IMG/VR virus record: IMGVR_UViG_3300040801_002588 | Coordinates: 1 to 45,979 of that record | Strand: one strand, 5' to 3' | DNA from: a virus | Length of the DNA stretch: 45,979 nucleotides | In this document: positions 8,122-29,766 of the stretch, piece by piece | Layout of the letters: each line of letters starts with the position of its first letter | How positions within the stretch are numbered: position 1 is the first letter of the stretch | Translations under genes and position numbers: made by a program | The notes under the pieces: model-generated | The model's input: only the letters and a program-made list of their open reading frames with translations | Told to the model about the DNA's origin: nothing | Databases searched by the model: none

Positions 8122-9951
8122 ATGGCAAAGCCCTTTGATCATGGGGATGCAGGCGTCCCTGGTTACGGCCAGGATCCCATGCCCCATTCGTACAAGGCGC
8201 CCCCGGGTCCCTTGGACAATCCGCCCAGTACAGTCGGTGAACAGATTCGTACTGATTACTGGTATCGCCGTGCGCTGGTAGAAGCTGCGAAGGAAGCATT
8301 CTTCTCCCAGATGGCTGACGTGCGTGCCATGCCCAAGAATATGGGTAAAACCATCAAGCAGTATCACTACCTGCCGATCCTCGACGACCGCAATGTCAAC
8401 GATCAGGGTATCGATGCTCAGGGCCGTACTACTCAGACCCTTGGCGATGCAGCAGCCACTGGAAATCAGTGGATTCCTGGTAAGTCTGTTGTGACTGCAG
8501 CAGTTCGACTGCTGGCTCCGGCCAACATGTCGGGTCGTAATTTGTATGCCACGTTTAATTACACAGGCGAAAATACTGTGCCCGGTGCTGTTCCAGGTAC
8601 TGCTCCTACAGGAGTTACCAACAAACCGAAGCTTTATGGCACACCGCCTAAAAACGATCCTAATGCAGGAGATCCGTTTGTAGCTGGTGAAGCATGGCCT
8701 GCGTACAGTCTGGAAGATTTCCCGGAAACGGTGTACTTCTCTGGCTCAGCTACCGGTGCTGATGCGGCCACTGCTATGACCGCTGCTGTCAAAATTGCTG
8801 CAGGTAAGGCTAAAGATTGGTACGCCGAATTTATTGGCGGTACTTTGGCTATAGCAACAGGTGGTGCTGATTTGGCAGGCGCTTCTGGTAATGCTGGTCG
8901 TGATGCAAGTGCTTGGAAGGCCCAATATCTAGATAAAGATGGTGTTTGGAATAACACTGTTCCGACTGGTGGTGCAGCAGGTACTGCTGGCGCTAACTAT
9001 GTATCTGGCAACCTGTATGGTTCTGCCCGTGACGTGGGTTCCATCATGGCCAAGATGCCGATCCTCTCTGAGACCGGTGGCCGTGTAAACCGCGTTGGCA
9101 TGACCCGTCGTACCCTCGAAGGTAGCCTTGAGAAGTTTGGCTTCTTCGAAGAGTACACCCAGGAATCCCTGGACTTCGATACCGACAGTGAACTGCTTGG
9201 ACGTATTACGTCCGAAGCTGTGAAAGCAGCTAATCAGATCACCGAAGATACGATCCAGCTGGACCTTCTTCACTCTGCTGGTGTGGTCCGCTTCTGTGGT
9301 ACTGGCAGTGCTGTGTCTACTGCTACCGTTGACGGTGTTGTTAGTTATGACGACCTGGTTAAGGTCGGCATTGAAATGGACAATAACCGCATTCCGAAGA
9401 GCACGCGTATCATCGCTGGTTCTCGGATGATCGACACCCGTGTCGTGAATGCAGCTCGGTACGCCTACATTGGTTCAGAACTTCGTCCGACCCTGATGCG
9501 CATGAAGGATTACTTCGATGAAGCAGCCTTCATTCCTGTGGCTCAGTACGCAGCTGCTGGCAATGTAGCTAAGGGTGAGATCGGTGCAATCGGTGACTTC
9601 CGCTTTATTGAAGTGCCGGACATGATGTACTGGCAAGGTGCTGGTAAAGCAAGTACTACTGGAGAGGTTGATGACGGTACAGGTAATGCCGTAGCTGGAC
9701 ACACCGATGGCGCTAACATCAACGTCTATCCGATCCTCTTTGTAGGCGATGGCGCCTTTACCTGCATTGGTTTCCAGACCAATGGCAAGACGGTGAAGTT
9801 CACCATTACCCACAAGAAGCCGGGTCCGGAGCGTGCAGATCGGCACGACCCGTACGGCGAAGTGGGCTTCTGGTCCATCAAGTGGTACTACGGCTTCATG
9901 GCCCTGCGGCCGGAACGCATCGTACTGCTGAAGACTGCTGCTCGTTACTGA
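8122..9951 (+). CDS. Major capsid protein, N4-gp56 family, with large insertion
   Basis: 609 residues, with a GAGAGG ribosome site. Family blocks run through the protein: KFGFFEEYTQESLDFDTDSE, ITEDTIQLDLLHSAG, an R-I-I-A-G-S block, ARYAYIGSELRPTLMRM, GEIGAIGDFRFIEVPDMMYW, YPILFVGDGAFTCIGFQTNG and near the end DPYGEVGFWSIKWYYGFMAL then RPERI. These mark the HK97-fold capsid subunit of N4 relatives. N4 gp56 is about 400 residues; here some 150 extra residues lie between about 147 and 300 (Gly/Ala/Thr-rich, low complexity), and a Gly/Asp/Thr-rich loop interrupts the C-terminal part near 510-530. The insertion may form a surface domain. It is followed by a strong hairpin, which fits high transcription of this gene. 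Confidence 0.93.
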   Translation: MAKPFDHGDAGVPGYGQDPMPHSYKAPPGPLDNPPSTVGEQIRTDYWYRRALVEAAKEAFFSQMADVRAMPKNMGKTIKQYHYLPILDDRNVNDQGIDAQGRTTQTLGDAAATGNQWIPGKSVVTAAVRLLAPANMSGRNLYATFNYTGENTVPGAVPGTAPTGVTNKPKLYGTPPKNDPNAGDPFVAGEAWPAYSLEDFPETVYFSGSATGADAATAMTAAVKIAAGKAKDWYAEFIGGTLAIATGGADLAGASGNAGRDASAWKAQYLDKDGVWNNTVPTGGAAGTAGANYVSGNLYGSARDVGSIMAKMPILSETGGRVNRVGMTRRTLEGSLEKFGFFEEYTQESLDFDTDSELLGRITSEAVKAANQITEDTIQLDLLHSAGVVRFCGTGSAVSTATVDGVVSYDDLVKVGIEMDNNRIPKSTRIIAGSRMIDTRVVNAARYAYIGSELRPTLMRMKDYFDEAAFIPVAQYAAAGNVAKGEIGAIGDFRFIEVPDMMYWQGAGKASTTGEVDDGTGNAVAGHTDGANINVYPILFVGDGAFTCIGFQTNGKTVKFTITHKKPGPERADRHDPYGEVGFWSIKWYYGFMALRPERIVLLKTAARY

Positions 9952-16695: not shown

Positions 16696-19600
16696 ATGAG
16701 TGATTTCATTGGTAGACTAAAGCGAGCTCGTACGCTTGGTGAGCAGAAAGTACAACAGCTGGATGAACGTTTAGCTGAAAAGCGCTCGCGTCTGGATCCG
16801 GAAGAAGCGGGTTGGGAAGATGTACCCGATAATCAGTTCCAGATTGTTGATGGCGATACTGCATTCAATCCAGCCAATAATGAATATTTTCGTATTGCCT
16901 TCCCCGGCATGCGTACAGCTAATACGTTTGAATCCCGACCAGAAGTTTACGAACGTGATCCAGAATTATTTCAACGTCACCGTTTAGCACTGGCCAATAT
17001 CAAAGGTTGGCATCCTGATCGGGTAAGCATTGAGCACTTAGTTGAAGAAGGTAGAAGTGCCAAGTTTCGTATTGGGCAGGATTTGGGAGAGCAGATCCGT
17101 AACGGACAGCTACAAGCTCGCAGAATGGGTCGAGCAGCTGATGGACGTACTTTGCTTGAAGTACGTAATAAACAGGCACCCAATGAGTGGCGTGATTTTT
17201 ATACGGGACAAGATGAGAATGCCGATTATTGGACTAAGTTTAATTCCAGAAAAATTCTTGAAGATTTAGGAAAGCAGGATCTACCCGACCAACATCGCAA
17301 AGGCGAACGCAGCTTTGGCGAGTTAGCTACGGATCTACCATCACAAGCGCTGACTGGCACTATGAGCCTTGGTTTAGCTGGTGCACAGTTCGGGGCAAAT
17401 GCTCTTGGCTTGAACAACATCGAAGGTGTTAATGAAGCTTTTGCTGATGCCAATGATGCAGTTGAACGTCTGAAAAAATCCATGACCAGCGATGCGTCAC
17501 AGTATCGCTCCCGTATGTTCGATAAGCAGCGTGAACGAGCTAAGCAAATGGCTCCTATGCGGGAACAGATGTATCGCCAGAATGGGTTGACCGAGCGGCA
17601 AGCACGGGTAGCCGCCGGACTGGATGAATATAAAGATGCAATGACGGCTATTGGCAAGGAACCAGGAGCTATCCTGGATCTTGCTGCAGAATCATTACCC
17701 TCTATGTTTGCTGTAGGTATTGGCGGCATTGCAGGTCGTGCAGTGGCCATGCGTGCAGCTTCCAAAGCTGTATTGAATGATCTCAAAAAACGTCCTTTCT
17801 CCCTGCCCAAACTGACGGCTCGTGCTGAAGATGTGGGCAAAGACAAATTTAGCAGGGCAAACCGAGCACGATTGGCTGAAACAAAGAAAGACATCCGGGA
17901 AGGTTTGTACGATAAAGATGGCAAGCTAGACATAGATGCAGCAAAGAAAGCTGCGCATAACGCAGCCATGGATTTCTACAAAGACACGGAAGCCGGCAAA
18001 AACATCATCAAATGGGTCAGTAGGTCTACTGGTATAGCTGGCATTGGTGTGACAGAAACTGTTGGTAACGTCGCCGATGCATATAACTCAGTCATGACCA
18101 TGCCTGTGGATCAGTTGATGCAGTCAGAACGCTTTCAGGCACTGGTTATAGATCAGGGTCTGACAGTAGACGAAGCCAGACAACAAATGGCTGATCAAGT
18201 AGCCAGTGAAATTGGCACTAATACATTCTTGCTGGCAACGGCTACTGCTGCAGCATTTGGTACTGGCGCCTTTGAAGGTAAGCTGTTCCAGTTCAAGACC
18301 AATCCATTTGCGAAGGAGGTCGTTGGAGAAGTTGCCGAAGAGGGTGTGGAACAGGCAGCCAAGACCAGTTTAGGGGCACGTCTGAAATCAGCGCTATCAC
18401 TGAAGTCTGCTAAAGAAGCGACCAAGAAAGCCACGAAGGCTACAGGTGAAGCGGTCAAGAAAACACCATCATTGGCCAAAACTGCTGCTAAGGTGCAAGC
18501 CAGTGCTGGCGTACGTGTTGCTGGTCGTTCCTTGGGCGCAGGTGGCCAAGAGTTTATTGAAGAAACAGCTCAGTCAGGTGGTGGCACATACATTACACAA
18601 GCGGCCATGGAGCCCATTACGGGTGAAGCACCCCGATTGGGTGCAGCCTGGGATGCAGCACAAGGTGGTGCAGCAGGTCTGGTGACTGGTGTCTCGATGT
18701 CAGGCATTTCTGGCACCATCAAAGAAACCATCAAGAAAGCCGAACAAGCCCGCAGGGGCACACCCGATACTGTTGGATCAGGCACTATTCGTGATATCAG
18801 TGGTGTCCCGGGCGGTAGCAGTAATAATGCCAATCTTGTAATACGTGAAGAATTTGCAGAGGATGATTATGACGCAGTAGGTGCAGCAGAGGCTGCCTAC
18901 GAAGAGCTGGGCGATACTACTGCTGAAGACGCTCCGGCACGCTACCAAAACTATGCTGTAGCACGTGCTAAAGGTGCAGTTGCTGAGAGCGCTCTTGTGA
19001 CTCAGATCACCGAAGAGCAGGACCCCAATAAGAAGAAAGAACTGGTAACTAAACTGCAGCAAGTACGTGCTGCCAATCAGCAAGCAGATTCCAATTTTCA
19101 GGAAATGGTTCAACGTGAGCTGGGCGATATTGCGCCTCGGGCACGTGACGGTAATCTGACCGAAGATGACCTGAATACCATTGAGCAAGTGGCCGGTCGT
19201 GGCGCCATTCTGAATGAATTATTCCAAAGCACCAACCTACCCGAGCCAGTACGTGCCGCAATCCAGGCGGCATCAGATATTTATAACCTGATCCGAAATG
19301 AAACCAATCCCAGCAGCCTGTACAACCAGGTGAAAAAGCAGGCTTTGGTTATTGCTGAAAAAGATGGGCTCGAAGGCGAAGAAGCAAATAGCGTTGCTGA
19401 AGCACTGACGGAGAACTTGGTTGGTACCGGTCTGAGTGTATTCAACGACAGCGACGGCAACACCGTCAGTCGTGCTGGATTGGCAAGAGCCTGGAATCAC
19501 GCACAGGAATTTTTGCGTGCAGGTATGCCGGAAGAAGCCAAGGCTTTGGTGAACGAAAGACTTGATGCGCTGGCAGCAAATCTCTCACTTGATGAAGACA

Positions 19601-20955
19601 CAATCAATGAAATCAGAGACAAGTTCAACCAGCGTGTAGACAATGACCAGCAGATCAAGGAAGCAATCAAACAAGGCCCGGTAAAACCAGATGCCACACA
19701 AGCAGCAGGGGAGCAGGGAAAGGCGGCTGCAGCAACGCAAACAGGTGAGGCTACCCCAGAAGGTGCCCAGACGCCCAGAGCCGCTGAGAGCGGCCCACAG
19801 CGGCCAGAGTTTACCAGCACCAATAAGCAGGAGTGGAATGATTACTTGGCCCAAGTGCCGGATGAAGAGCTGGCACAGCTGAACAAAGACGTACGGGCAG
19901 CGGCAGGACGTAACAATGGGCAGGATGTAAGCGTAGCGCAACAGGCTATCAAAGAGGCTATTCTGGCTCGGAACAAAGCAAGCCAAGCTACGCCACGGCC
20001 GGGCCCTGAGCCTGAGCCTGAGCCTGAGCCTGAAGCTGAAGTTGAAGCTGAAGGAGGGTTGACCCCAGAACAGGAAGAGAACGAGCCAATTCTCAGCGGA
20101 GCCGAGATGCTCATCAACGATGACCCGCAATCTGATTTGGGTCAAAGTTATGTTGAACAACTGAGTGAAATCGAAGATCAACTGACAGAGGATCAGCAGG
20201 CACGCCTACAGACATTACGCGAGAAGATATCTGCAGCTGAGCCCGAGCCGGCGCAGCCGGCCGGGCCAGCTGCTGAAGAAGTAGAAGAAGAAGAAACCGG
20301 AGATGAAACTGCAGAAATTATCGGCAGAGAAGCCAAAGCCGCAAAGCAGGAAGTTGAACAGAACCTGGTATCGGCTTCCGTGTTCTTCCTGGATCCATTG
20401 AGCTCATTGATTCAGCGTTTGGAAATGGACGGCACAGACGTGCTGGATAAATACAGCGCATCACCAGCAACTCCTGTAAACGACATTGTGGGGCAGGTAC
20501 TGGAAGATGGTGCTGGAATGAATTTTGGTACATTTGCTGAGATGCCTGAAATAGCTGGCAATGTACAGGTAATTGCACGCAGTATGTCGCGGGATAATTC
20601 AGCGATCCAGAATTCCGCCAATGTAGTGACCAAGCTGCAGCAATTGCTATCTGCATTTCAGGATGATGTAAAACTGTACTATGAACGCAATCGCAACAAG
20701 CTGGGCACATCTGCAGAAAACCGCAGTGCCAGTGATTGGATGCGGGTGACACGTGGGGCAGAAGGTTTTACTTCATTGGATTTCGCTGACCAACTGACAC
20801 AAGGCCAGATTGGTGAAATAGAAAATACAGTGAATTCAGTGACAGGTCTGGCCGATGTGGACACAACCCCTGTCGAAGGTATCCGAGATCCACAGCAAAA
20901 GGCAGCAGCTGCACTAGCAAAATTGAAGAAATTCAATGAGCTATGCAAAAAATAA
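16696..20955 (+). CDS. Giant (1419 aa) internal virion / ejection protein
   Basis: The N-terminal part is basic and helical, then QIVDGDTAFN at residues about 49-58 followed by F-R-I; this loosely recalls the D-G-D-T...R-L core of staphylococcal-nuclease folds, but the downstream acidic residue is not clearly kept. Hydrophobic Gly/Ala-rich segments lie at about 319-355 (LPSMFAVGIGGIAGRAVAMR), 511-525 and 657-673, suitable for membrane insertion. Between them are Lys/Ala-rich helices. The C-terminal third is acidic and linker-like, including eight glutamate-containing hexamer codon repeats at 20005-20052. In size and place it corresponds to the internal protein next to vRNAP in N4 (gp51). It probably travels with the polymerase into the cell. 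No clear SD before its ATG. Confidence 0.6.
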   Translation: MSDFIGRLKRARTLGEQKVQQLDERLAEKRSRLDPEEAGWEDVPDNQFQIVDGDTAFNPANNEYFRIAFPGMRTANTFESRPEVYERDPELFQRHRLALANIKGWHPDRVSIEHLVEEGRSAKFRIGQDLGEQIRNGQLQARRMGRAADGRTLLEVRNKQAPNEWRDFYTGQDENADYWTKFNSRKILEDLGKQDLPDQHRKGERSFGELATDLPSQALTGTMSLGLAGAQFGANALGLNNIEGVNEAFADANDAVERLKKSMTSDASQYRSRMFDKQRERAKQMAPMREQMYRQNGLTERQARVAAGLDEYKDAMTAIGKEPGAILDLAAESLPSMFAVGIGGIAGRAVAMRAASKAVLNDLKKRPFSLPKLTARAEDVGKDKFSRANRARLAETKKDIREGLYDKDGKLDIDAAKKAAHNAAMDFYKDTEAGKNIIKWVSRSTGIAGIGVTETVGNVADAYNSVMTMPVDQLMQSERFQALVIDQGLTVDEARQQMADQVASEIGTNTFLLATATAAAFGTGAFEGKLFQFKTNPFAKEVVGEVAEEGVEQAAKTSLGARLKSALSLKSAKEATKKATKATGEAVKKTPSLAKTAAKVQASAGVRVAGRSLGAGGQEFIEETAQSGGGTYITQAAMEPITGEAPRLGAAWDAAQGGAAGLVTGVSMSGISGTIKETIKKAEQARRGTPDTVGSGTIRDISGVPGGSSNNANLVIREEFAEDDYDAVGAAEAAYEELGDTTAEDAPARYQNYAVARAKGAVAESALVTQITEEQDPNKKKELVTKLQQVRAANQQADSNFQEMVQRELGDIAPRARDGNLTEDDLNTIEQVAGRGAILNELFQSTNLPEPVRAAIQAASDIYNLIRNETNPSSLYNQVKKQALVIAEKDGLEGEEANSVAEALTENLVGTGLSVFNDSDGNTVSRAGLARAWNHAQEFLRAGMPEEAKALVNERLDALAANLSLDEDTINEIRDKFNQRVDNDQQIKEAIKQGPVKPDATQAAGEQGKAAAATQTGEATPEGAQTPRAAESGPQRPEFTSTNKQEWNDYLAQVPDEELAQLNKDVRAAAGRNNGQDVSVAQQAIKEAILARNKASQATPRPGPEPEPEPEPEAEVEAEGGLTPEQEENEPILSGAEMLINDDPQSDLGQSYVEQLSEIEDQLTEDQQARLQTLREKISAAEPEPAQPAGPAAEEVEEEETGDETAEIIGREAKAAKQEVEQNLVSASVFFLDPLSSLIQRLEMDGTDVLDKYSASPATPVNDIVGQVLEDGAGMNFGTFAEMPEIAGNVQVIARSMSRDNSAIQNSANVVTKLQQLLSAFQDDVKLYYERNRNKLGTSAENRSASDWMRVTRGAEGFTSLDFADQLTQGQIGEIENTVNSVTGLADVDTTPVEGIRDPQQKAAAALAKLKKFNELCKK
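20005..20052 (+). repeat. Tandem hexanucleotide repeat encoding Pro/Ala-Glu linker
   Basis: Four perfect CCTGAG units followed by CCTGAA, GCTGAA, GTTGAA and GCTGAA. They encode a Pro-Glu repeat that decays into Ala-Glu and Val-Glu, an extended acidic linker inside the 1419-residue protein. Such tracts change length easily by slippage. Confidence 0.9.
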
Positions 20956-20967
20956 CAGGACTTACTT

Positions 20968-23900
20968 ATGCCCTTAGTTTGTAGCATCAAAGGCAGAACT
21001 GCCGAACAGACCCTGAAGCGAATTCGCAGTGGCGAATTACAGGCTGTTAAACATATCACTGACGCGATGCGGGAAGCTCGTGAAGGTATGTATGACGGGG
21101 CAGGTTATCCAGCTGAAAAATTATTGAAGATTTTTACCATGCCTGAGAATGCCATCAGGCAAGAGGTCTATCAGACCTTGGCTCCATACGCCTGGATGGC
21201 CCTGGATACCGAGATCGATAACAGTATCCATGAACTCATCGAAAACCGTGACACGACCTTGGATGAGATTATTGAGCGGGTAGATGCAATTGCTCGGGAT
21301 GAAAACCTGACTCTGGATACCCGACTGAGTAATATCCGCACTGCAATGTTTGGCCGGTTGGCCAAATTTACCCAGGAAACGGGTAAGCGTCCTAGTCCCA
21401 AAGCACTGAACCTGGCACAAGGCACATCGGTTGCGTACATTGAATCCGTATTTTTGAATAAAGATTCCAAGTCCAAGTTGGATGAGGCCCGCAATAAAAA
21501 ACCTGTAGTGGATCATTTGTGGGATATTTTTGAGTCTCGATCAGAAGATAAAACCAATAGCATATTTGCATTGCAGGCCAATGCCATGGGCCTGTTTGAG
21601 ACTTTGTTGGGTCAAGGTCTGCTCTGGGATGTCGAGTTGGGTGAGATTGGCGCCAGTGGTGACGCATTCAAAGCAGCTGCATATCGCTATCTGGATTACC
21701 ACAAGAAATTTGTAAATGCCCTGCGTAAAGCAATGGGTCCATATGACCCTACGAAATCCAAGACAGCGCAGCATCCTTTATACAATAAAGGACAGAATTT
21801 TGATGAGCGGCTTCGGGAAGACCCATCATTTTTTCTACGCAATCCTATTACTGGTGAAATGCCGGCCAATGTTGAAGGTGCGTTGTCTGCAGCTGTATTT
21901 TGGTACGCCTCAAATATTATTGGTCGCACGCTCTATCTGAACCCACGCGAAGTCAATCGCAGATTGGGCAGGCGCCTGGATCACCCAGTTAGTGAGGATG
22001 AAATGACCAACCCTGAAATTCAGGGTGAGTCAGAAGAAGTCGCACGTCAGATGATTGGCAACATGGCCTGGAAAGCATTAGGCATGTACCACGACCGCAG
22101 CGTGCCGGGACACCACGAAGAATTGATTAAGATGGCGCTGGGCCAATGGGGATTGGAAACCTTGGCTGAGTTGGGCGTTATTAAACCGGAAAATGTACTG
22201 GTAGATCTGGCTGAAGTAACGGGTTCTCAGATCGCCGAATCAACCAAGGTACGATTGATCCAGTTGGAGCGCGTAGAGCGGGAGGACAGCGGTACATACA
22301 ACGAAGAAACCGGGATCCTTGAGGATTTTGAATACGATCCACCACCGCTATACAGACAGATGCTGGATACCTATTGGGCGTTGCGCAACAAAGGTGATAC
22401 CAGCCCCAAGAATAATAACGAACAAGAAGTTAAAGGCCATCTGCTGGGTCGTCTTTTTGGTTGGGGTAGTGATACCTCTTTGCCTATTTTGGCTGATGGG
22501 AATAGCGAAAAACCGGTTACTTCACCTAAGTTGTCCAGCGGCAATAACAGCGTGCCGCAGGTTATGGCAGATGCTGCTACTGTACATGCGCAGCGGGAAC
22601 AAAAGTTCAACACAGTAGGTATGCATGTGATGAACTTGATTGGTGTTGTACCGTTTTTGAATCTCTACACCAAGTACGAATCCAATCGCAACAAGATCCA
22701 CAAGGACAAACGTCAAGGCGCTATTGATCGGAATACACAGTTGCGAGCTGACGTCAATTTCATGAAGCGTTGGTTTGCTGTTGCCAAAGATCAGGGTTTT
22801 TACATTCCAAACCGTTTTCTCAATAACTGGCGTAACCATGAGGACTCCAGACTCAGTCGCCAGATGAGCAAGATCCACCGTGCATTTGTACAACCGGCAG
22901 AAACAGCGTATGTGATTAAAGCCGGTCAGGCAGGCCAGACTGAAAAGGAATTCCTAGTAGCCGTTGCGGAAAAGATTGGAATTTCGCTGAGAAAAGATCA
23001 GGTACCCCGGGGGGAACGTCCAGTTAAGTTTGATCCTGAAGCTTTGGAGACCTGGGATCAGGCCTATGAGCAGGCTCAGCTATATCTGAATCAACCCATT
23101 CTGAAATCAGATGGGACAACCAGCCGTCTGATCGTTGAGGTTGCTGAAGTACTGGGACGGTTATCTGATCCCACTCGCACCCATCGTGCCACTGCACAGG
23201 AATTAAAATTACTACAGGAGCTCAACTACAACGACCACGAGATTGAAGCTGAAGGCTTCATAGCGTTGATGAATTATGGGCGTTATTTGACTGCGCCCAA
23301 GGGCACTGAAATCGAAGTGTTCCAACCGGTCCAGTTTGATGCCAAAGGCGCCGGTTTGAATTGGCAGCTATCGCAGCTGATTACACTAGATACCTATGAT
23401 GAGTCCCTGAATAAACTGGCCACTGGCGGCTACAAGATCAATGACGAACAAGTCTTTGATCTAGACACGCGGCAAATGTCTACCATGAAGTATCTGGATC
23501 AGACTACAGACGCGTATGAGCGTCTGCGTGATGCCCGTGTTACGTACACAACAAGTGTGGCGCAAGGCAAGACACCCGTGGTAGTGGGCACTACCATTGA
23601 ATTCCAAGAAACGGACCTACGCATCACAGCGTTGACCCGTAACGTGGAAATTTCCAAACAAAACTTCCTGGATATACAAAGCCATACACGTCCCTGGGAG
23701 AGCATATTCCGCACATCCAAAGCCAAGTACGAAGAAGACTTGGCAGATTTACGGGCTGCTTACGCAGTTACGCTGACTGATGCAAATGGCAAAACCTTGC
23801 ACCAGACACTGCAGGAACTGGATTTGTTACCCAGTGATGCCAGCAAATCCCGTGAGCTGGTTAAGCATGTAGCCATGATCAAGGCCTACTTTGCCGGTGA

Positions 23901-26900
23901 AATTTCATTGGAGCAACGGCATATTGAGGATTTGTTCGATACGATCCGCAGCATGCTTGCCGAACAAGGCACTATTGATGAAGCGGCTCAATTCCTAAGT
24001 ATTCTGGTGCGTGCCGTACGCTTGGCAAATGCCATTGATATCAAGATTGATCCCGAATTCCGTAACCTGCCGGGCTATGAAGTAGGTTTGACGGATGCAA
24101 CTGTGATGGAACAAAAGTTAGGTGAAGCGCTGAAATCACTTAAGCCTGGCCAGCGTGTAGGCGCAGAGATCAGCTTTAACGATACCGACATATTCACGCA
24201 TAACTTCAAATCCAGATTGATGTCTGCATTGCGTATGACCTATGGTTCTTCGTTACGTTATGCATTGCGCATTGAGAATCTGAACCAGGATGCCGTACGT
24301 AAATTCATGAGTGAAGCCGTAAACATTATGGCCATCATCATACGACCGGTACTGGATCAAAAAATTAAAGAACAAAAAATGCTGGGACTGGATGTAGGTC
24401 CAGCTGAAATTAACCAGATTGTACGCAGCATGATCAAAGGCGGAATCTGGCCCACATTGCAGACGCACCTTTCCCATAATGCAGAAACTGGATTGGATGC
24501 CATGAGTTGGGATTTTGAAGCACTTGACGATGTGGCCTTCAAAATTGCACGTGAGCCTTCTGAGCGGGTCAAGAAAAACAGCGTCAAGGACAATGTTCGT
24601 ATGCTGATGCCACAAGGGCGTGGCGGCATTGCAGCTAATGTGCGCCTAAATCAGGCACTGAGTGACGCTGTAGTTATGATCCTGGTTGCTGAAAAGGTGC
24701 CCTTGATCAGCACCCTTGACGGTGGCATCACGTCACCCAAATTGGTGGGTGAAGCAGTACGTCTGGCAAATGAATACAGTGCTTCTTCGATGTTGGAAAA
24801 CAACATCATGGAGAATCTGTTCAATGAGCTCGCCAAGACATTGGTTATTTTGCGGGACGACAATACACTATTGCCACCGGATGTACGCAAGGTGGTCAAG
24901 GCCCGTTTACATGATGCTTTGTCACGTGACTACACACCAGAACCCTCAGTAAGTTTGCTGGATACCTGGCTGGGTCGATTTGAAGGTGTAGTGACCCAGG
25001 TTAAGAAAGCCAGAGAGCAGGCATTTTTCAGTGGGATACCGGTTCAATTCGGTAACTTTGTTTATCGAGGCGGTGAGATCACACACCAAAAGAAAGGTGT
25101 GGAATCCAATGAAAAAACGCCACTGGGTTTGCTGCAAGCAGAAATGGCAGCCAATCGCGGTCAAACTGTTGTTGGCTTGAAGGCGGTTACAGATGCATTC
25201 CTTAAATCCATGGAATCGTTTGAAACTCGCTATCGTGAGTTTGATGTCAAGCGGTTGGCTTATGGATTAAGCACCAATACCGAGTCACAGATGTTGCGTG
25301 GCATTCTGAGTCGCAGCAATAACGCTGGTGGCGCCAAAGAAGTCACACTACAAGAATTGCTGGAGGTTATGACGGATGCCAGCAATAACGTAGGTCGGCC
25401 ATTAACACATTCAATCATGCAAAACCTGGCTCGCTACGCCAAGGTATTCAATGCCAATGAAATCCGTGTGCGCTGGACAGATGCCCTGCTGCGGGATCCG
25501 GATAACCCCGCTAACCTGGTTTACGCTGAGTTCGATCCTAAAGCCAATGGCGGCAAAGGTATTATTCGTATTTCAGGTCCTTACTACACGGACAACAGCA
25601 ACCCTGATATGGATCTGTGGCAAGCCGTCACACACGAGATGGCACATGGCGTATTGCAGCGTAAGTTCGAGCAGATGTTTTCTGATGAGAACCTGGCTGA
25701 GAACGAACCACAGGTACAGGCATGGCTAGGTCGACAGATGTGGGCACTCAAGCAGCTCAAAAATGTCACCAGCATGCAATTGCCAATACAACGCATTGCA
25801 GAAGCAGCGAACAGCAAAAACCTCCGTAAGTTTATGCAGAACGAGGCCAACCGGGATTCAGTCATCAAGGGTCTGTCTGAGTTTTATGCCTGGAGTCTGA
25901 CCTCCAAGGAGAAGATCCCAGAGAGTCTGCAAGAAACTCTGTCATTGCCGGATCTGAATACACAGGCCAAGCTGGGTTTGAATGCGTTGATCCAACAGGA
26001 TCGACGTAACCGACGACAGGAACAGCAAGATGCACAAGGTGCTGCCACCCTGGTCGGACTGTTATCCATGCCGGGTGTAGACGTGGTTCAGAGTGAAGAG
26101 CTGCAGCGGCGCACTGAAGACATTCGTAAGCCTGGCCAGGAAGGTAATCCGCAAAGTTCATCCACTCCTACTTATGGAGATCCACGCATAGATGGTGTAG
26201 AAGGTGCGGGTGAGACTGATCTGAACTTAAAAGAATTTATCACCAGCTTTTACAATCGCACTACGGCAGATCAAGTGCAGTATGTGTTTGATGTACTCAG
26301 TGAACGAGAGCAAGGTGAAACTAGTCCTGAACACCAACGTCAGCTGAAAAGCATTATCCAACGCTTCATCATTCCGGGTATTCGCTCCATTGGTTGGGTT
26401 GAAACTCGTCTAATGGACAAAATGCCAACCGCCCGGCATGGTGGTGCTTATGCCTATGATAATGACACATTGGGTAAAGGCACAGTTTATCTGGGTGCCG
26501 CTGGTAACCAGCTCACATCTAATGCGTACATGTCGCTGGAAGAAATCGCAGCGCATGAATATCTGCATGCCATTATCAAATTTGCACTACGTAACAACAT
26601 TCATTTCCGTACAGAACTGCAGCGTCTGTTTCAATTGGCTAAGGATAATCTGACCTGGGAAAACTTAATGCCCCCGGCGGATCAGATTGTTGGTGATCCC
26701 AAAATTGCCGAGGAAGCGGCTAAGCGCAGGTGGGACTATATCTTTGAAGGCATGGGTCCGAATCCGCTGGAAGATTTCATGGCTATCGGGTTGACCAATG
26801 AACCGCTCTCCAATGCATTGAAAACCCTGGATCAGGCAAAGTTGAAGAACAAACCACTCATAGAGGGTACGTTCTCCGAACGCTTGCGTAATTTGTTGAC

Positions 26901-29766
26901 GCGGATGTTGGAATGGTTAGCCGGCCTAAAAATGAAAACCAATCAGGGTTCAGTGTATACCGGGCTGGAGCAACTGACACTGGAGATTGTCAAATACAAC
27001 ACTCAGACAGCCCAGAAGATTCAGCGACGTCAGATGGGTAAACGTCCCCTTCTGGACCGCCTGAACACGGCTACAGGCGATCTGATCGATACAGTAACCC
27101 GCAAGCCAATCAAACGTCTGTTGGACCGTCAGCAGGGCGACAATTGGCGGAGCAATGGTTTACGTGGTGCCGTAGGCAAAGTAGCTAGCGAATACATGTC
27201 TGAACGCAGGAAGCATATCGAGCAGGCCATGGATGAGTGGTACCGAGGTATTGGTGGTGTCAAGAACAATGCTTTGTTTGAGATCATGGAAGAGTTTAAG
27301 CCGTACGATCCAGACAAGCGCAAGTGGTACCACGTGTTGCGCATGTCTGATCACGAGATTGAACAAGCCAGACGCCGTATGGCTGAAGACATTCGGCGCT
27401 TTATCATGGAGCATTTTGATAAGAAAAACTTCATGAACAAGGCTGAACGGGCAGCCATCACAACTGTGGTCATGCGGACCAACCTGCAGGTGTTGCTGGA
27501 TACCAATGCACCTAACTACAGTGAGTTAATCAAACTGCTCAGTGATCCCCAGTATTTACAAGCAGCTATCCAAGCTGAATTACGTACGCTGAACAAGGCA
27601 GTGAATGGCAACCAGGAATTGTTCAGAACATTCTATAACCAGGCCGGCAATCTGGGGTATTTCAAAATCGATGGTGTAGAGCGGCTTGAAGGTCAAATGT
27701 TTAATGCCACCAACATCGTAAACCAGGTCCAGTACCATAAGAACGAACGGTTAAAGGTACCGCATAAGGAAGACGCCATTGCAAGCGTGGAGCGGTTGTC
27801 TGCACTGCATGCTATCGATTTGATGCAGCACAATGGATCCAACGATATCCAAAATGCCTTGCGTGTGTTTAATCATGAAATGGCCAGGGATGTTGATATC
27901 AATGGCTTTACCTGGTTGGTTGATCTGCATAGTGTCTATGTCGCCATGGAAAAGAAGCGGCTACACAATGACAAAGCAGAGACCATGGTTGATGGGCATG
28001 TGTATGAGCAATATGACGAAGAGAGCAGCGTGCGGATTGAGATCGACACGCCAGCCAACAGGGAAGCCTTGGCGAAAGAAGGCTTTTTCTGGGTAGCTGA
28101 TTTCGAAGCGTCACCCAATGACCCCATCAAGGATAAGCGAGCTTGGTTCAAGAGTGCTCGTGGCATCAGTCTGCGCCAGCGTGGCGCCATATCAATTACC
28201 AGTGATGGTGATATTGGTCCGGACATGCGGGAAAACGTACGCCTGTCAGAGAAAGCCAGAAAACTGCATTTACGGGGACAGACACGCAGGCTGACCCAGC
28301 ATTTGGATACACAGACCAAGAATGCGGCCAGGGCCCAACGTCATACCATCATGGTGCAGCGGGACTACAACGGACCCAAGTTGATGGCCCCAGTGGTCAA
28401 TGAAGATGGTGAGGTTTACACCTACAAATACAATGTTCCAATGTCGATACGGGATAATGTGTTTGGTCGGGAGGATTACTTTGATCGGATCATGCCACGT
28501 CAGTTTGGCCACTTGGAAGATGTGGTTAAAAGTGAGGAGCATAACCGGAATATTGCCCGCATGTTGTTCGATGAGTATATCGCACTGAAAAACAATAAAG
28601 GCATACGCTTTGTACGCTATGGTGCGGACAGTACAGATCCGCGGATCCGAGAGACGTGGAACCTGTTGCCCAAAGCAATGAAAGAGGAAATGCGGCGTCG
28701 TTTTGGTGGGGATTATTTCTACATACGTGACGACATCACGAGTGCAGTGGTGGGATATCGTAAGCTGACCGTATCAGATGTAGCAGGCAAGCATGCCTTT
28801 GCTGTACGTACAGCTGAACGCATCGTGCAGGAGATCATGCAATGGACCAAATTGGATATCGCTATCCTGGATCCTACGGTAGCGGCAGCCAACATGGTCT
28901 CTAATATTGCTTTGCTACTGATGGCAGGCGTGCCCCCCGATTACATTATCAAGGAAGCAGCTGTAGCCATGCGAGGCGTGGCCCAGTATCGGAAGGATCT
29001 ACGGGAACTGCGTAGAAAACAACTACAGACACAAATGGACATCGCCAAAGGCGGTACTGGCAGTCAGTACTTGGGTGATTTGAAGTTACTGGAACATCGC
29101 ATTACACATAACCCAGTAAAGTCTTTGATGGATGAGGGTATTTTCACTACGATTGTCGAAGATCACGTGCCGGATGAAACATCCTTACGCAGTCGGGCTA
29201 TTGAAGCTGTTGAAGACAAAATGGGTCGAGCCATTCATCCATACGCTGCACGAGCAGTGAATGAATTCTGGATGCTACCCGGATCTACTGGCTTTCAGGT
29301 GATGATTGCAGCGACCCAGTATGCTGACTTTGTCAGCCGACATATCATCTACCAATATGAGACCCAGGTACGTGGAGCATCACATGAAGATGCTCTGGAC
29401 AAAGCTCTGGCTTACTTCATCTGGTATGACCTGCCGCAGAATATGTATCTGCAGTATGGCGGTGATATGGGAATGATCATGTTCAGTAAGTATTTCTTCA
29501 GGATTCAGCCTGTAGTTACCATGATCTTTGTGACCAATCCAGCCACAGCTACAGCTGTGATCTTGCTGCAGCCTATGCTAGCAGGGATGTTTCCGCAGCC
29601 CTTTGAGCAAGCTATGGGAGCCAACATCCAAGACTACTTAATGCTGGGTGGTTTTAATATCCAAGGGCGTTTACATATGTTCCCATTAATGGCAACAAGT
29701 GAACGTAACATATTGACACCTAACTTATTACAGGCAGTGATGTGGCCGATAGGTGGAATGCAATGA
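20968..29766 (+). CDS. Giant (2932 aa) virion RNA polymerase-like protein with two HExxH domains
   Basis: It occupies the N4 vRNAP (gp50) slot: last late gene, next to the convergent replication genes. Proposed T7/N4-type polymerase motifs: motif A at 791-797, D-A-K-G-A-G-L, with Asp and Gly spaced as in T7 D-G-S-C-S-G-I; motif B around 1081-1094, FKSRLMSALRMTYGS, with Y-G-S as in T7, though the nearest Lys is 11 rather than 8 residues before Tyr; motif C at 1250-1251 as L-D where H-D is usual. Residues 612-638 may be the T/DxxGR region. After the polymerase come two metallopeptidase-like domains: HEMAH at 1556-1560 with E1638, and HEYLH at 1863-1867 with E1935. The last ~330 residues are hydrophobic in patches, like the C-terminal part needed in N4 for packaging. 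It is expected to be ejected with DNA and to transcribe early genes from hairpin promoters. The polymerase assignment is inference from synteny plus motifs. Confidence 0.65.
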   Translation: MPLVCSIKGRTAEQTLKRIRSGELQAVKHITDAMREAREGMYDGAGYPAEKLLKIFTMPENAIRQEVYQTLAPYAWMALDTEIDNSIHELIENRDTTLDEIIERVDAIARDENLTLDTRLSNIRTAMFGRLAKFTQETGKRPSPKALNLAQGTSVAYIESVFLNKDSKSKLDEARNKKPVVDHLWDIFESRSEDKTNSIFALQANAMGLFETLLGQGLLWDVELGEIGASGDAFKAAAYRYLDYHKKFVNALRKAMGPYDPTKSKTAQHPLYNKGQNFDERLREDPSFFLRNPITGEMPANVEGALSAAVFWYASNIIGRTLYLNPREVNRRLGRRLDHPVSEDEMTNPEIQGESEEVARQMIGNMAWKALGMYHDRSVPGHHEELIKMALGQWGLETLAELGVIKPENVLVDLAEVTGSQIAESTKVRLIQLERVEREDSGTYNEETGILEDFEYDPPPLYRQMLDTYWALRNKGDTSPKNNNEQEVKGHLLGRLFGWGSDTSLPILADGNSEKPVTSPKLSSGNNSVPQVMADAATVHAQREQKFNTVGMHVMNLIGVVPFLNLYTKYESNRNKIHKDKRQGAIDRNTQLRADVNFMKRWFAVAKDQGFYIPNRFLNNWRNHEDSRLSRQMSKIHRAFVQPAETAYVIKAGQAGQTEKEFLVAVAEKIGISLRKDQVPRGERPVKFDPEALETWDQAYEQAQLYLNQPILKSDGTTSRLIVEVAEVLGRLSDPTRTHRATAQELKLLQELNYNDHEIEAEGFIALMNYGRYLTAPKGTEIEVFQPVQFDAKGAGLNWQLSQLITLDTYDESLNKLATGGYKINDEQVFDLDTRQMSTMKYLDQTTDAYERLRDARVTYTTSVAQGKTPVVVGTTIEFQETDLRITALTRNVEISKQNFLDIQSHTRPWESIFRTSKAKYEEDLADLRAAYAVTLTDANGKTLHQTLQELDLLPSDASKSRELVKHVAMIKAYFAGEISLEQRHIEDLFDTIRSMLAEQGTIDEAAQFLSILVRAVRLANAIDIKIDPEFRNLPGYEVGLTDATVMEQKLGEALKSLKPGQRVGAEISFNDTDIFTHNFKSRLMSALRMTYGSSLRYALRIENLNQDAVRKFMSEAVNIMAIIIRPVLDQKIKEQKMLGLDVGPAEINQIVRSMIKGGIWPTLQTHLSHNAETGLDAMSWDFEALDDVAFKIAREPSERVKKNSVKDNVRMLMPQGRGGIAANVRLNQALSDAVVMILVAEKVPLISTLDGGITSPKLVGEAVRLANEYSASSMLENNIMENLFNELAKTLVILRDDNTLLPPDVRKVVKARLHDALSRDYTPEPSVSLLDTWLGRFEGVVTQVKKAREQAFFSGIPVQFGNFVYRGGEITHQKKGVESNEKTPLGLLQAEMAANRGQTVVGLKAVTDAFLKSMESFETRYREFDVKRLAYGLSTNTESQMLRGILSRSNNAGGAKEVTLQELLEVMTDASNNVGRPLTHSIMQNLARYAKVFNANEIRVRWTDALLRDPDNPANLVYAEFDPKANGGKGIIRISGPYYTDNSNPDMDLWQAVTHEMAHGVLQRKFEQMFSDENLAENEPQVQAWLGRQMWALKQLKNVTSMQLPIQRIAEAANSKNLRKFMQNEANRDSVIKGLSEFYAWSLTSKEKIPESLQETLSLPDLNTQAKLGLNALIQQDRRNRRQEQQDAQGAATLVGLLSMPGVDVVQSEELQRRTEDIRKPGQEGNPQSSSTPTYGDPRIDGVEGAGETDLNLKEFITSFYNRTTADQVQYVFDVLSEREQGETSPEHQRQLKSIIQRFIIPGIRSIGWVETRLMDKMPTARHGGAYAYDNDTLGKGTVYLGAAGNQLTSNAYMSLEEIAAHEYLHAIIKFALRNNIHFRTELQRLFQLAKDNLTWENLMPPADQIVGDPKIAEEAAKRRWDYIFEGMGPNPLEDFMAIGLTNEPLSNALKTLDQAKLKNKPLIEGTFSERLRNLLTRMLEWLAGLKMKTNQGSVYTGLEQLTLEIVKYNTQTAQKIQRRQMGKRPLLDRLNTATGDLIDTVTRKPIKRLLDRQQGDNWRSNGLRGAVGKVASEYMSERRKHIEQAMDEWYRGIGGVKNNALFEIMEEFKPYDPDKRKWYHVLRMSDHEIEQARRRMAEDIRRFIMEHFDKKNFMNKAERAAITTVVMRTNLQVLLDTNAPNYSELIKLLSDPQYLQAAIQAELRTLNKAVNGNQELFRTFYNQAGNLGYFKIDGVERLEGQMFNATNIVNQVQYHKNERLKVPHKEDAIASVERLSALHAIDLMQHNGSNDIQNALRVFNHEMARDVDINGFTWLVDLHSVYVAMEKKRLHNDKAETMVDGHVYEQYDEESSVRIEIDTPANREALAKEGFFWVADFEASPNDPIKDKRAWFKSARGISLRQRGAISITSDGDIGPDMRENVRLSEKARKLHLRGQTRRLTQHLDTQTKNAARAQRHTIMVQRDYNGPKLMAPVVNEDGEVYTYKYNVPMSIRDNVFGREDYFDRIMPRQFGHLEDVVKSEEHNRNIARMLFDEYIALKNNKGIRFVRYGADSTDPRIRETWNLLPKAMKEEMRRRFGGDYFYIRDDITSAVVGYRKLTVSDVAGKHAFAVRTAERIVQEIMQWTKLDIAILDPTVAAANMVSNIALLLMAGVPPDYIIKEAAVAMRGVAQYRKDLRELRRKQLQTQMDIAKGGTGSQYLGDLKLLEHRITHNPVKSLMDEGIFTTIVEDHVPDETSLRSRAIEAVEDKMGRAIHPYAARAVNEFWMLPGSTGFQVMIAATQYADFVSRHIIYQYETQVRGASHEDALDKALAYFIWYDLPQNMYLQYGGDMGMIMFSKYFFRIQPVVTMIFVTNPATATAVILLQPMLAGMFPQPFEQAMGANIQDYLMLGGFNIQGRLHMFPLMATSERNILTPNLLQAVMWPIGGMQ

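Follow-up and report, generated by a model that had tools for sequence, protein, structure and literature searches.

The window analysed here is the whole stretch of 45,979 bases from virus record IMGVR_UViG_3300040801_002588. It contains a gene that is the polymerase-plus-C-terminal-domain half of a split N4-type virion RNA polymerase (vRNAP) of the Schitoviridae, and its neighbours are portal, head and virion structural genes, which fit an N4-like virion block. The features of the vRNAP genes are:

16696..20955, + strand: ORF A, 1419 aa, the N-terminal domain (NTD) of the vRNAP, encoded as a separate gene (PHROG 2206, hhalign, BLASTP)
20953..20970, + strand: gene junction, with the ORF A stop TAA, a Shine-Dalgarno-like AGGA and the ORF B ATG in the same frame
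20968..29766, + strand: ORF B, 2932 aa, the polymerase core and C-terminal domain (CTD) of the same N4-type vRNAP, with both HExxH domains (PHROG 2206, hhalign)
22831..24720, + strand: polymerase catalytic positions R622, K635, D791, K966 and D1251 (hhalign map to N4)
27025..29763, + strand: rest of the CTD, equivalent to C2 of N4 (alignment, hhalign)

The PHROG 2206 profile ('virion RNA polymerase') matches residues 1083-2887 of ORF B (E 7.6e-189), and hhalign with a profile built from 18 named vRNAPs of the Schitoviridae aligns ORF B with residues 1139-3455 of N4 gp50 (E 6e-101). The homology to the family CTD extends over about 1400 aa, and 468 phage records were found by tblastn. In the hhalign map the five catalytic positions correspond to N4 R1421, K1434, D1556, K1667 and D1948, with 5/5 identical residues; these N4 residues, which we take to have the roles given in the T7-like polymerase literature, are invariant in at least 17 of the 18 relatives. 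Since all five are aligned with N4, the possibility that ORF B contains no genuine polymerase was ruled out. Among the virion genes of the window, positions 8122-9951 (+ strand) encode a 609-aa major head protein whose residues 19-608 align with a head-protein profile that has only about 340 positions; a large insertion, of roughly 250 aa, seems to be present in it.

ORF A matches the PHROG 2206 profile (55-380, E 9.9e-15), residues 273-373 of N4 gp50 (E 7.6e-11, hhalign with the profile of 18 named vRNAPs) and residues 1-682 of the vRNAP of L020 (BLASTP, E 1e-44), the closest relative found, in which the vRNAP is a single unsplit gene of 4233 aa. A single polypeptide with NTD, core and CTD is the usual layout, but it is not family-defining: it is missing in the window and also in L025 and L027, where the NTD is a separate ORF of 836 and 845 aa (HMM E 7e-31 and 8e-27, respectively). 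The window gene is kept here as an N4-type vRNAP. In L025 (2204-6545) and L027 (1420-6374), the NTD gene is followed by a gene of 434 and 623 aa, respectively, and then by the polymerase-CTD gene, which constitutes a second natural vRNAP split, in a different lineage from that of the window.

The split in the window is unlikely to result from a sequencing error or from read-through of the stop, with no real second gene. Such an origin would agree with the common frame of ORFs A and B, which are separated by a single TAA at 20953, and with the unsplit gene of L020; rare cases of separated vRNAP ORFs, in two other phages, were noted earlier and ascribed to gene calling or read-through (PMC10654107). 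However, the TAA is followed by AGGA at a fitting distance before the ATG at 20968, another gene intervenes between the separate NTD and the core gene in L025 and L027, and the window break, between NTD and polymerase, coincides with the position of the long flexible linker of N4 (residues 907-1007; PMC12633501). Naturally split vRNAP genes show which joints of the protein can be non-covalent. L070 was discarded as a further split because its 2159-aa ORF begins near the contig end; this ORF shares 99.9% identity with residues 1688-3846 in the unsplit L067 vRNAP.

Between the polymerase core and the C2-related region, ORF B contains two HExxH domains, which occupy the positions here named slot 1 and slot 2:

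25339..25947, + strand: slot-1 zincin-like domain, about residues 1458-1660 (AF2 model residues 19-206; slot-1 HMM)
25633..25647, + strand: HEMAH, residues 1556-1560
25879..25881, + strand: E1638, third-ligand position of slot 1 (Glu in 45/45 slot-1 clusters)
25942..26223, + strand: low-confidence linker between the domains, about residues 1659-1752 (pLDDT under 50, model residues 220-313)
26218..27024, + strand: slot-2 zincin-like domain, about residues 1751-2019 (AF2 model residues 312-580; active slot-2 HMM)
26554..26568, + strand: HEYLH, residues 1863-1867
26770..26775, + strand: E1935-D1936, with D1936 homologous to the family ligand Glu

The initial annotation had placed HEMAH, HEYLH, E1638 and E1935 at these residues, with the acidic residues 78 and 68 positions behind their motifs, and both the positions and the spacings are correct. 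At least two HExxH motifs appeared in 0.36% of 5000 shuffles of the window protein (expected number 0.087). Slot 2 matches an HMM of active slot-2 sequences that excluded the window (E 1.4e-26), and slot 1 matches the slot-1 HMM weakly (jackknife E 0.004). The same zinc-ligand layout had been claimed for both domains, which holds for slot 1, with E1638, but not for slot 2, where the homologous residue is D1936 and not E1935: the slot-2 family motif is EF-x-A-x-G-LTN, and LEDFMAIGLTN in the window puts D1936 at the ligand Glu column. Glu is found at this column in 36 of the 37 active slot-2 clusters and the window alone has Asp, within a 79-cluster set that includes the best 80 of 210 matching IMG/VR loci (see below). 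The adjoining E1935 might substitute as ligand, and slot 2 of the window may work with Asp, use E1935 or be beginning to decay. Because the residue set is complete in slot 1 and the third-ligand position of slot 2 is Asp, slot 1 would be, judging from the sequence, the safer candidate for activity in the window phage.

Curated families and a phmmer search against PDB sequences gave nothing above threshold for the window protein. The only Pfam match at its HExxH motifs was SprT-like PF10263, with 19.5 bits, below the curated cut-off of 25.6, and NCBIfam gave zero matches. An AF2 model of window residues 1440-2020 (m12966c3102ef, 64 rows) had a moderate pLDDT of 73.8 and contains two domains joined by a disordered link, each with the succession helix, sheet, HExxH helix and ligand helix. 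In model numbering, the slot-1 elements are E61-97, H111-133 with HExxH at 117-121, and H197-206 with E1638, and those of slot 2 are E372-404, H418-437 with HExxH at 424-428, and H494-504. Foldseek gave no match of this model in the PDB at E <= 0.001, and seven in BFVD at the same threshold, namely one podovirus RNA polymerase, two Vibrio phage proteins named 'coil containing protein' and four nameless entries.

Among solved structures, anthrax lethal factor and PPEP (Zmp1) came closest to the slot domains in fold, with Z values of 5.6-7.5 for slot 2 of the window and 5.2-7.8 for slot 1 of phage LUZ7. By VIA-align, slot 2 of the window aligned with the lethal factor catalytic domain (1pwv) at Z 7.5 (rmsd 8.6, 177 residues), with Certhrax at Z 6.8 and with Zmp1/PPEP-1 at Z 5.6. 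Slot 1 of the window aligned best with a minizincin (2ejq, Z 5.3); its matches at Z 2.8-3.9 were mainly zincins, accompanied by non-zincins such as SidE at equal Z. The Z values of the window are middling, and a VIA Z below 8 may be due to a common arrangement. In LUZ7, slot 1 reached Z up to 7.8 with lethal factor and 5.2-5.9 with PPEPs (VIA). The pair of metallopeptidase-like (zincin) domains that had been proposed for this vRNAP is borne out by the AF2 layout and by zincins as the best structural matches, and both slot domains of the window are predicted to have a zincin-like (metallopeptidase) fold. The likeness to lethal factor and PPEP is structural, as the window protein has no phmmer sequence match to them, and no common delivery or substrate is known.

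It is very improbable that these domains are HExxH enzymes of a non-proteolytic type, for instance alpha-ketoglutarate-dependent oxygenases with this motif. Although 8s5f was among the matches (Z 3.6 and 3.0), higher scores (Z 5-8) were obtained with lethal factor, Certhrax and PPEPs, and HExxH with a downstream Glu is the gluzincin layout. The HExxH of such oxygenases is mentioned in PMC12633501.

The slots were compared in 99 sequences, composed of the window, 18 named phages picked from the matches, and the best 80 of the 210 matching IMG/VR loci, a set that leans towards relatives of the window. Three short fragments without a slot match (L074, L079 and L091) were dropped, and the remaining 96, all with a slot-2 match, formed 79 clusters at 90% identity. 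The slot-2 HMM was built from the 18 named phages and the window, and the slot-1 HMM from 14 of the 18 and the window, all of which are among the counted sequences. A single-protein scan for near relatives gave none, a two-row alignment search returned only the contig of L020 again, and a plasmid search matched one record.

Two family-wide positions for HExxH domains, the slots, were found between the polymerase core and C2. With the best 80 of the 210 IMG/VR loci included, HExxH was present in slot 1 only in 41 of the 79 clusters, in which the slot-2 domain is present with its HExxH lost; in slot 2 only, with slot 1 absent, in 32 (31 complete and the cut fragment L021); in both slots in four (window, L020, phi 1 and PG11); in slot 2 and in a copy upstream of the core in one (L045); and in neither slot in one (L064). 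The distance from the core end to the slot-2 start had a median of 52.5 aa (19-214) in the slot-2-only clusters (n = 32) versus 347 aa (254-517) in the slot-1-only clusters (n = 41), and this missing length rules out a degenerate slot 1 hidden in the slot-2-only phages. The conservation of HExxH in homologues, on which the initial annotation depended, was confirmed in 18/18 named N4-like vRNAPs, each with at least one copy, and the same pair of sites as in the window was recovered in L020, phi 1 and PG11.

Slot 2 of the slot-1-only phages lacks both histidines, with LEQVE or IESIE as typical motifs. The third-ligand Glu is also replaced in 41 of the 42 clusters with an inactive slot 2, with Arg (27) and Gln (6) as the most frequent substitutes, the remaining cluster being L064. 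HExxH and the third acidic residue were thus lost together, with Glu or Asp in 37/37 active and Glu in 1/42 inactive slot-2 clusters. Among the 45 clusters whose slot 1 is intact, again from the set with the best 80 of 210 IMG/VR loci, the only columns conserved at 100% were H, E, H and the third Glu.

Additional HExxH sequences were observed outside the slots. In the L045 vRNAP, residues about 1420-1685, upstream of the core, form a slot-1-like HExxH domain (E 2e-14 with a slot-1 HMM from which the window, phi 1 and PG11 had been left out). N-terminal motifs were also seen in L064 (1443, upstream of the core), DSS3phi2 (1178), L026 (1427) and L033 (226 and 1005); none of these scored at E <= 1 with the slot HMMs and they were not counted as slots. 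They may be other inserted domains or occur by chance.

The slot-1 and active slot-2 alignments are homologous by hhalign (probability 96.7%, E 3e-10), and active and degenerate slot 2 (99.7%, E 3e-26) are plainly one family. The internal duplication that the initial annotation saw in the window protein stands as homology between family profiles, but it was too simple a description: there are two family-wide slots, and slot 1 of the window is too divergent for its origin to be traced. The pairwise alignment of the two window domains was marginal (BLASTP E 0.007 in a single comparison, with 57/2000 shuffles scoring as high), which is too weak to prove a duplication, and the homology of the slots therefore rests on the family profiles. 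A domain tree left slot 1 of the window unplaced, with long branches and no starred set; this domain matches C1 of N4 in position, and orthology to C1 is not claimed.

An unrooted tree of the region behind slot 2, built from 79 rows by a quick method, explains the slot states with only six changes, and the relatives are therefore not independent. The state with both sites appears in three separate places among the slot-2 phages; this tree is compatible with an ancestor with both slots from which slot 1 was lost repeatedly, and also with renewed gains. Schitoviridae vRNAPs probably have tandem homologous zincin slots, of which selection keeps at least one, and usually one, catalytic. The active site would have shifted a few times, C2 of N4 would begin with the fossil of a second protease, a few phages such as that of the window would keep both sites, and an injected protease would be a core function of the vRNAP.

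N4 gp50 belongs to the same family as the window protein, keeps the polymerase residues and has an HExxH domain with Glu directly after the core. It differs in having a degenerate domain where the window has the second intact HExxH, and the window protein is encoded as two genes. C1 of N4 (residues 2124-2375) has a conserved HExxH according to Bellis et al. 2025 (PMC12633501), and C2, which belongs to the region required for encapsidation (PMC5512222), is mostly helical and without structural relatives (PMC12633501). C2 of N4 starts with slot 2, located at residues 2385-2610, where FQMVT stands at the HExxH position. The two-slot AF2 model of LUZ7 (pLDDT 86.4) has a zincin-like slot 1 and only helices in slot 2; the predicted slot 2 of the window, in contrast, has a sheet. 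The LUZ7 model matched the N4 cryo-EM structure 9pnt over residues 2124-2592 (Foldseek E 2.9e-4; VIA Z 13.2, 366 residues), and the rmsd of 14.2 corresponds to domains that are placed differently. Slot 2 of N4 would be a former protease domain that lost its sheet and metal site and kept its structural place. The degenerate slot 2 would give an origin for part of C2, a region reported as resembling no known structure.

On balance, the best overall explanation of this split N4-type vRNAP with two family-wide zincin-like slots appears to be that the slot domains are injected endopeptidases, most likely acting after entry. As a more tentative proposal, the domains could be Zn-dependent endopeptidases similar to lethal factor and PPEP, which would be packaged together with the vRNAP, threaded through the tail and refolded in the host, where they would cut a host or ejectosome protein in trans. 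Action in trans is favoured because the intact site sits in either slot, with one more located before the core in L045 and perhaps L064; because phages with the NTD as a separate gene (window, L025 and L027) keep HExxH; and because the N4 vRNAP is packaged uncut (PMC5512222) and was purified and assayed at full length (PMC12633501). A host-directed protease would be limited by the copy number, since a capsid holds only 4 +/- 1 vRNAP copies (PMC12633501).

The main alternative, a strong one that we regard as somewhat less probable than action in trans, is auto-processing, in which the metallopeptidase would cut the vRNAP itself at the NTD-core or core-CTD linkers after ejection and relieve the inhibition of transcription by the CTD. 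This function has already been proposed in print (PMC5512222), the CTD lowers N4 vRNAP activity in vitro, C1 contacts the core, and the linker between core and CTD is flexible and invisible (PMC12633501). An intact HExxH domain after the core in 77 of the 79 clusters (the exceptions being L064, which has none, and L021, which is cut) would also agree with it. Nevertheless, the unprocessed packaging of the N4 vRNAP (PMC5512222) and the assays and imaging of the full-length protein (PMC12633501) mean that cleavage is not spontaneous, and both the varying position of the intact site and its retention where NTD and core are encoded apart speak against auto-processing.

A purely structural or regulatory role of metal bound at the HExxH sites, with no peptidase activity, seems rather improbable. 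Slot 2 is non-catalytic in 42 of the 79 clusters with its domain kept, which means that a zincin-derived module can serve structure alone, but the general-base Glu is invariant alongside the ligands in 45/45 slot-1 clusters, and a mere zinc clamp needs none. Almost all complete relatives retain the zinc-site layout in at least one of the two slots, which argues that injected proteolysis is essential and provides the exact residues to mutate.

The initial annotation knew of no described function of this kind for the N4 vRNAP, and here it was mistaken, as the HExxH of C1 had been noted (PMC12633501) and Iyer et al. 2017 (PMC5512222) had described N4-like vRNAPs with "one or more" zincin metallopeptidase domains, for which roles in self-processing or in attack on the host were proposed. 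The same authors had reached lethal factor by HHpred (PMC5512222), and a match to PPEP-2 was reported for phage CB1 (PMC8472413). A limited literature search, covering text passages and sections, found no statement on a degenerate second zincin or on alternating slots. Within that search, what is new here is the family-wide arrangement of two slots between core and CTD, the presence of metallopeptidases and both functional ideas having been published. The polyvalent proteins of phages and plasmids are likewise giant injected proteins with one to five metallopeptidase domains (PMC5512222), and differ in that alternating active slots or a degenerate second metallopeptidase were not found described for them in the passages of that source.

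The nearest parallels to the two-site state of the window are the Vibrio phages phi 1 and vB_VhaP_PG11, whose vRNAPs have two HExxH motifs in the same slots (1942/2177 and 2187/2424, respectively). They differ from the window in that their genes are unsplit, their slot 2 has the ligand Glu and they lie on other branches of the tree.
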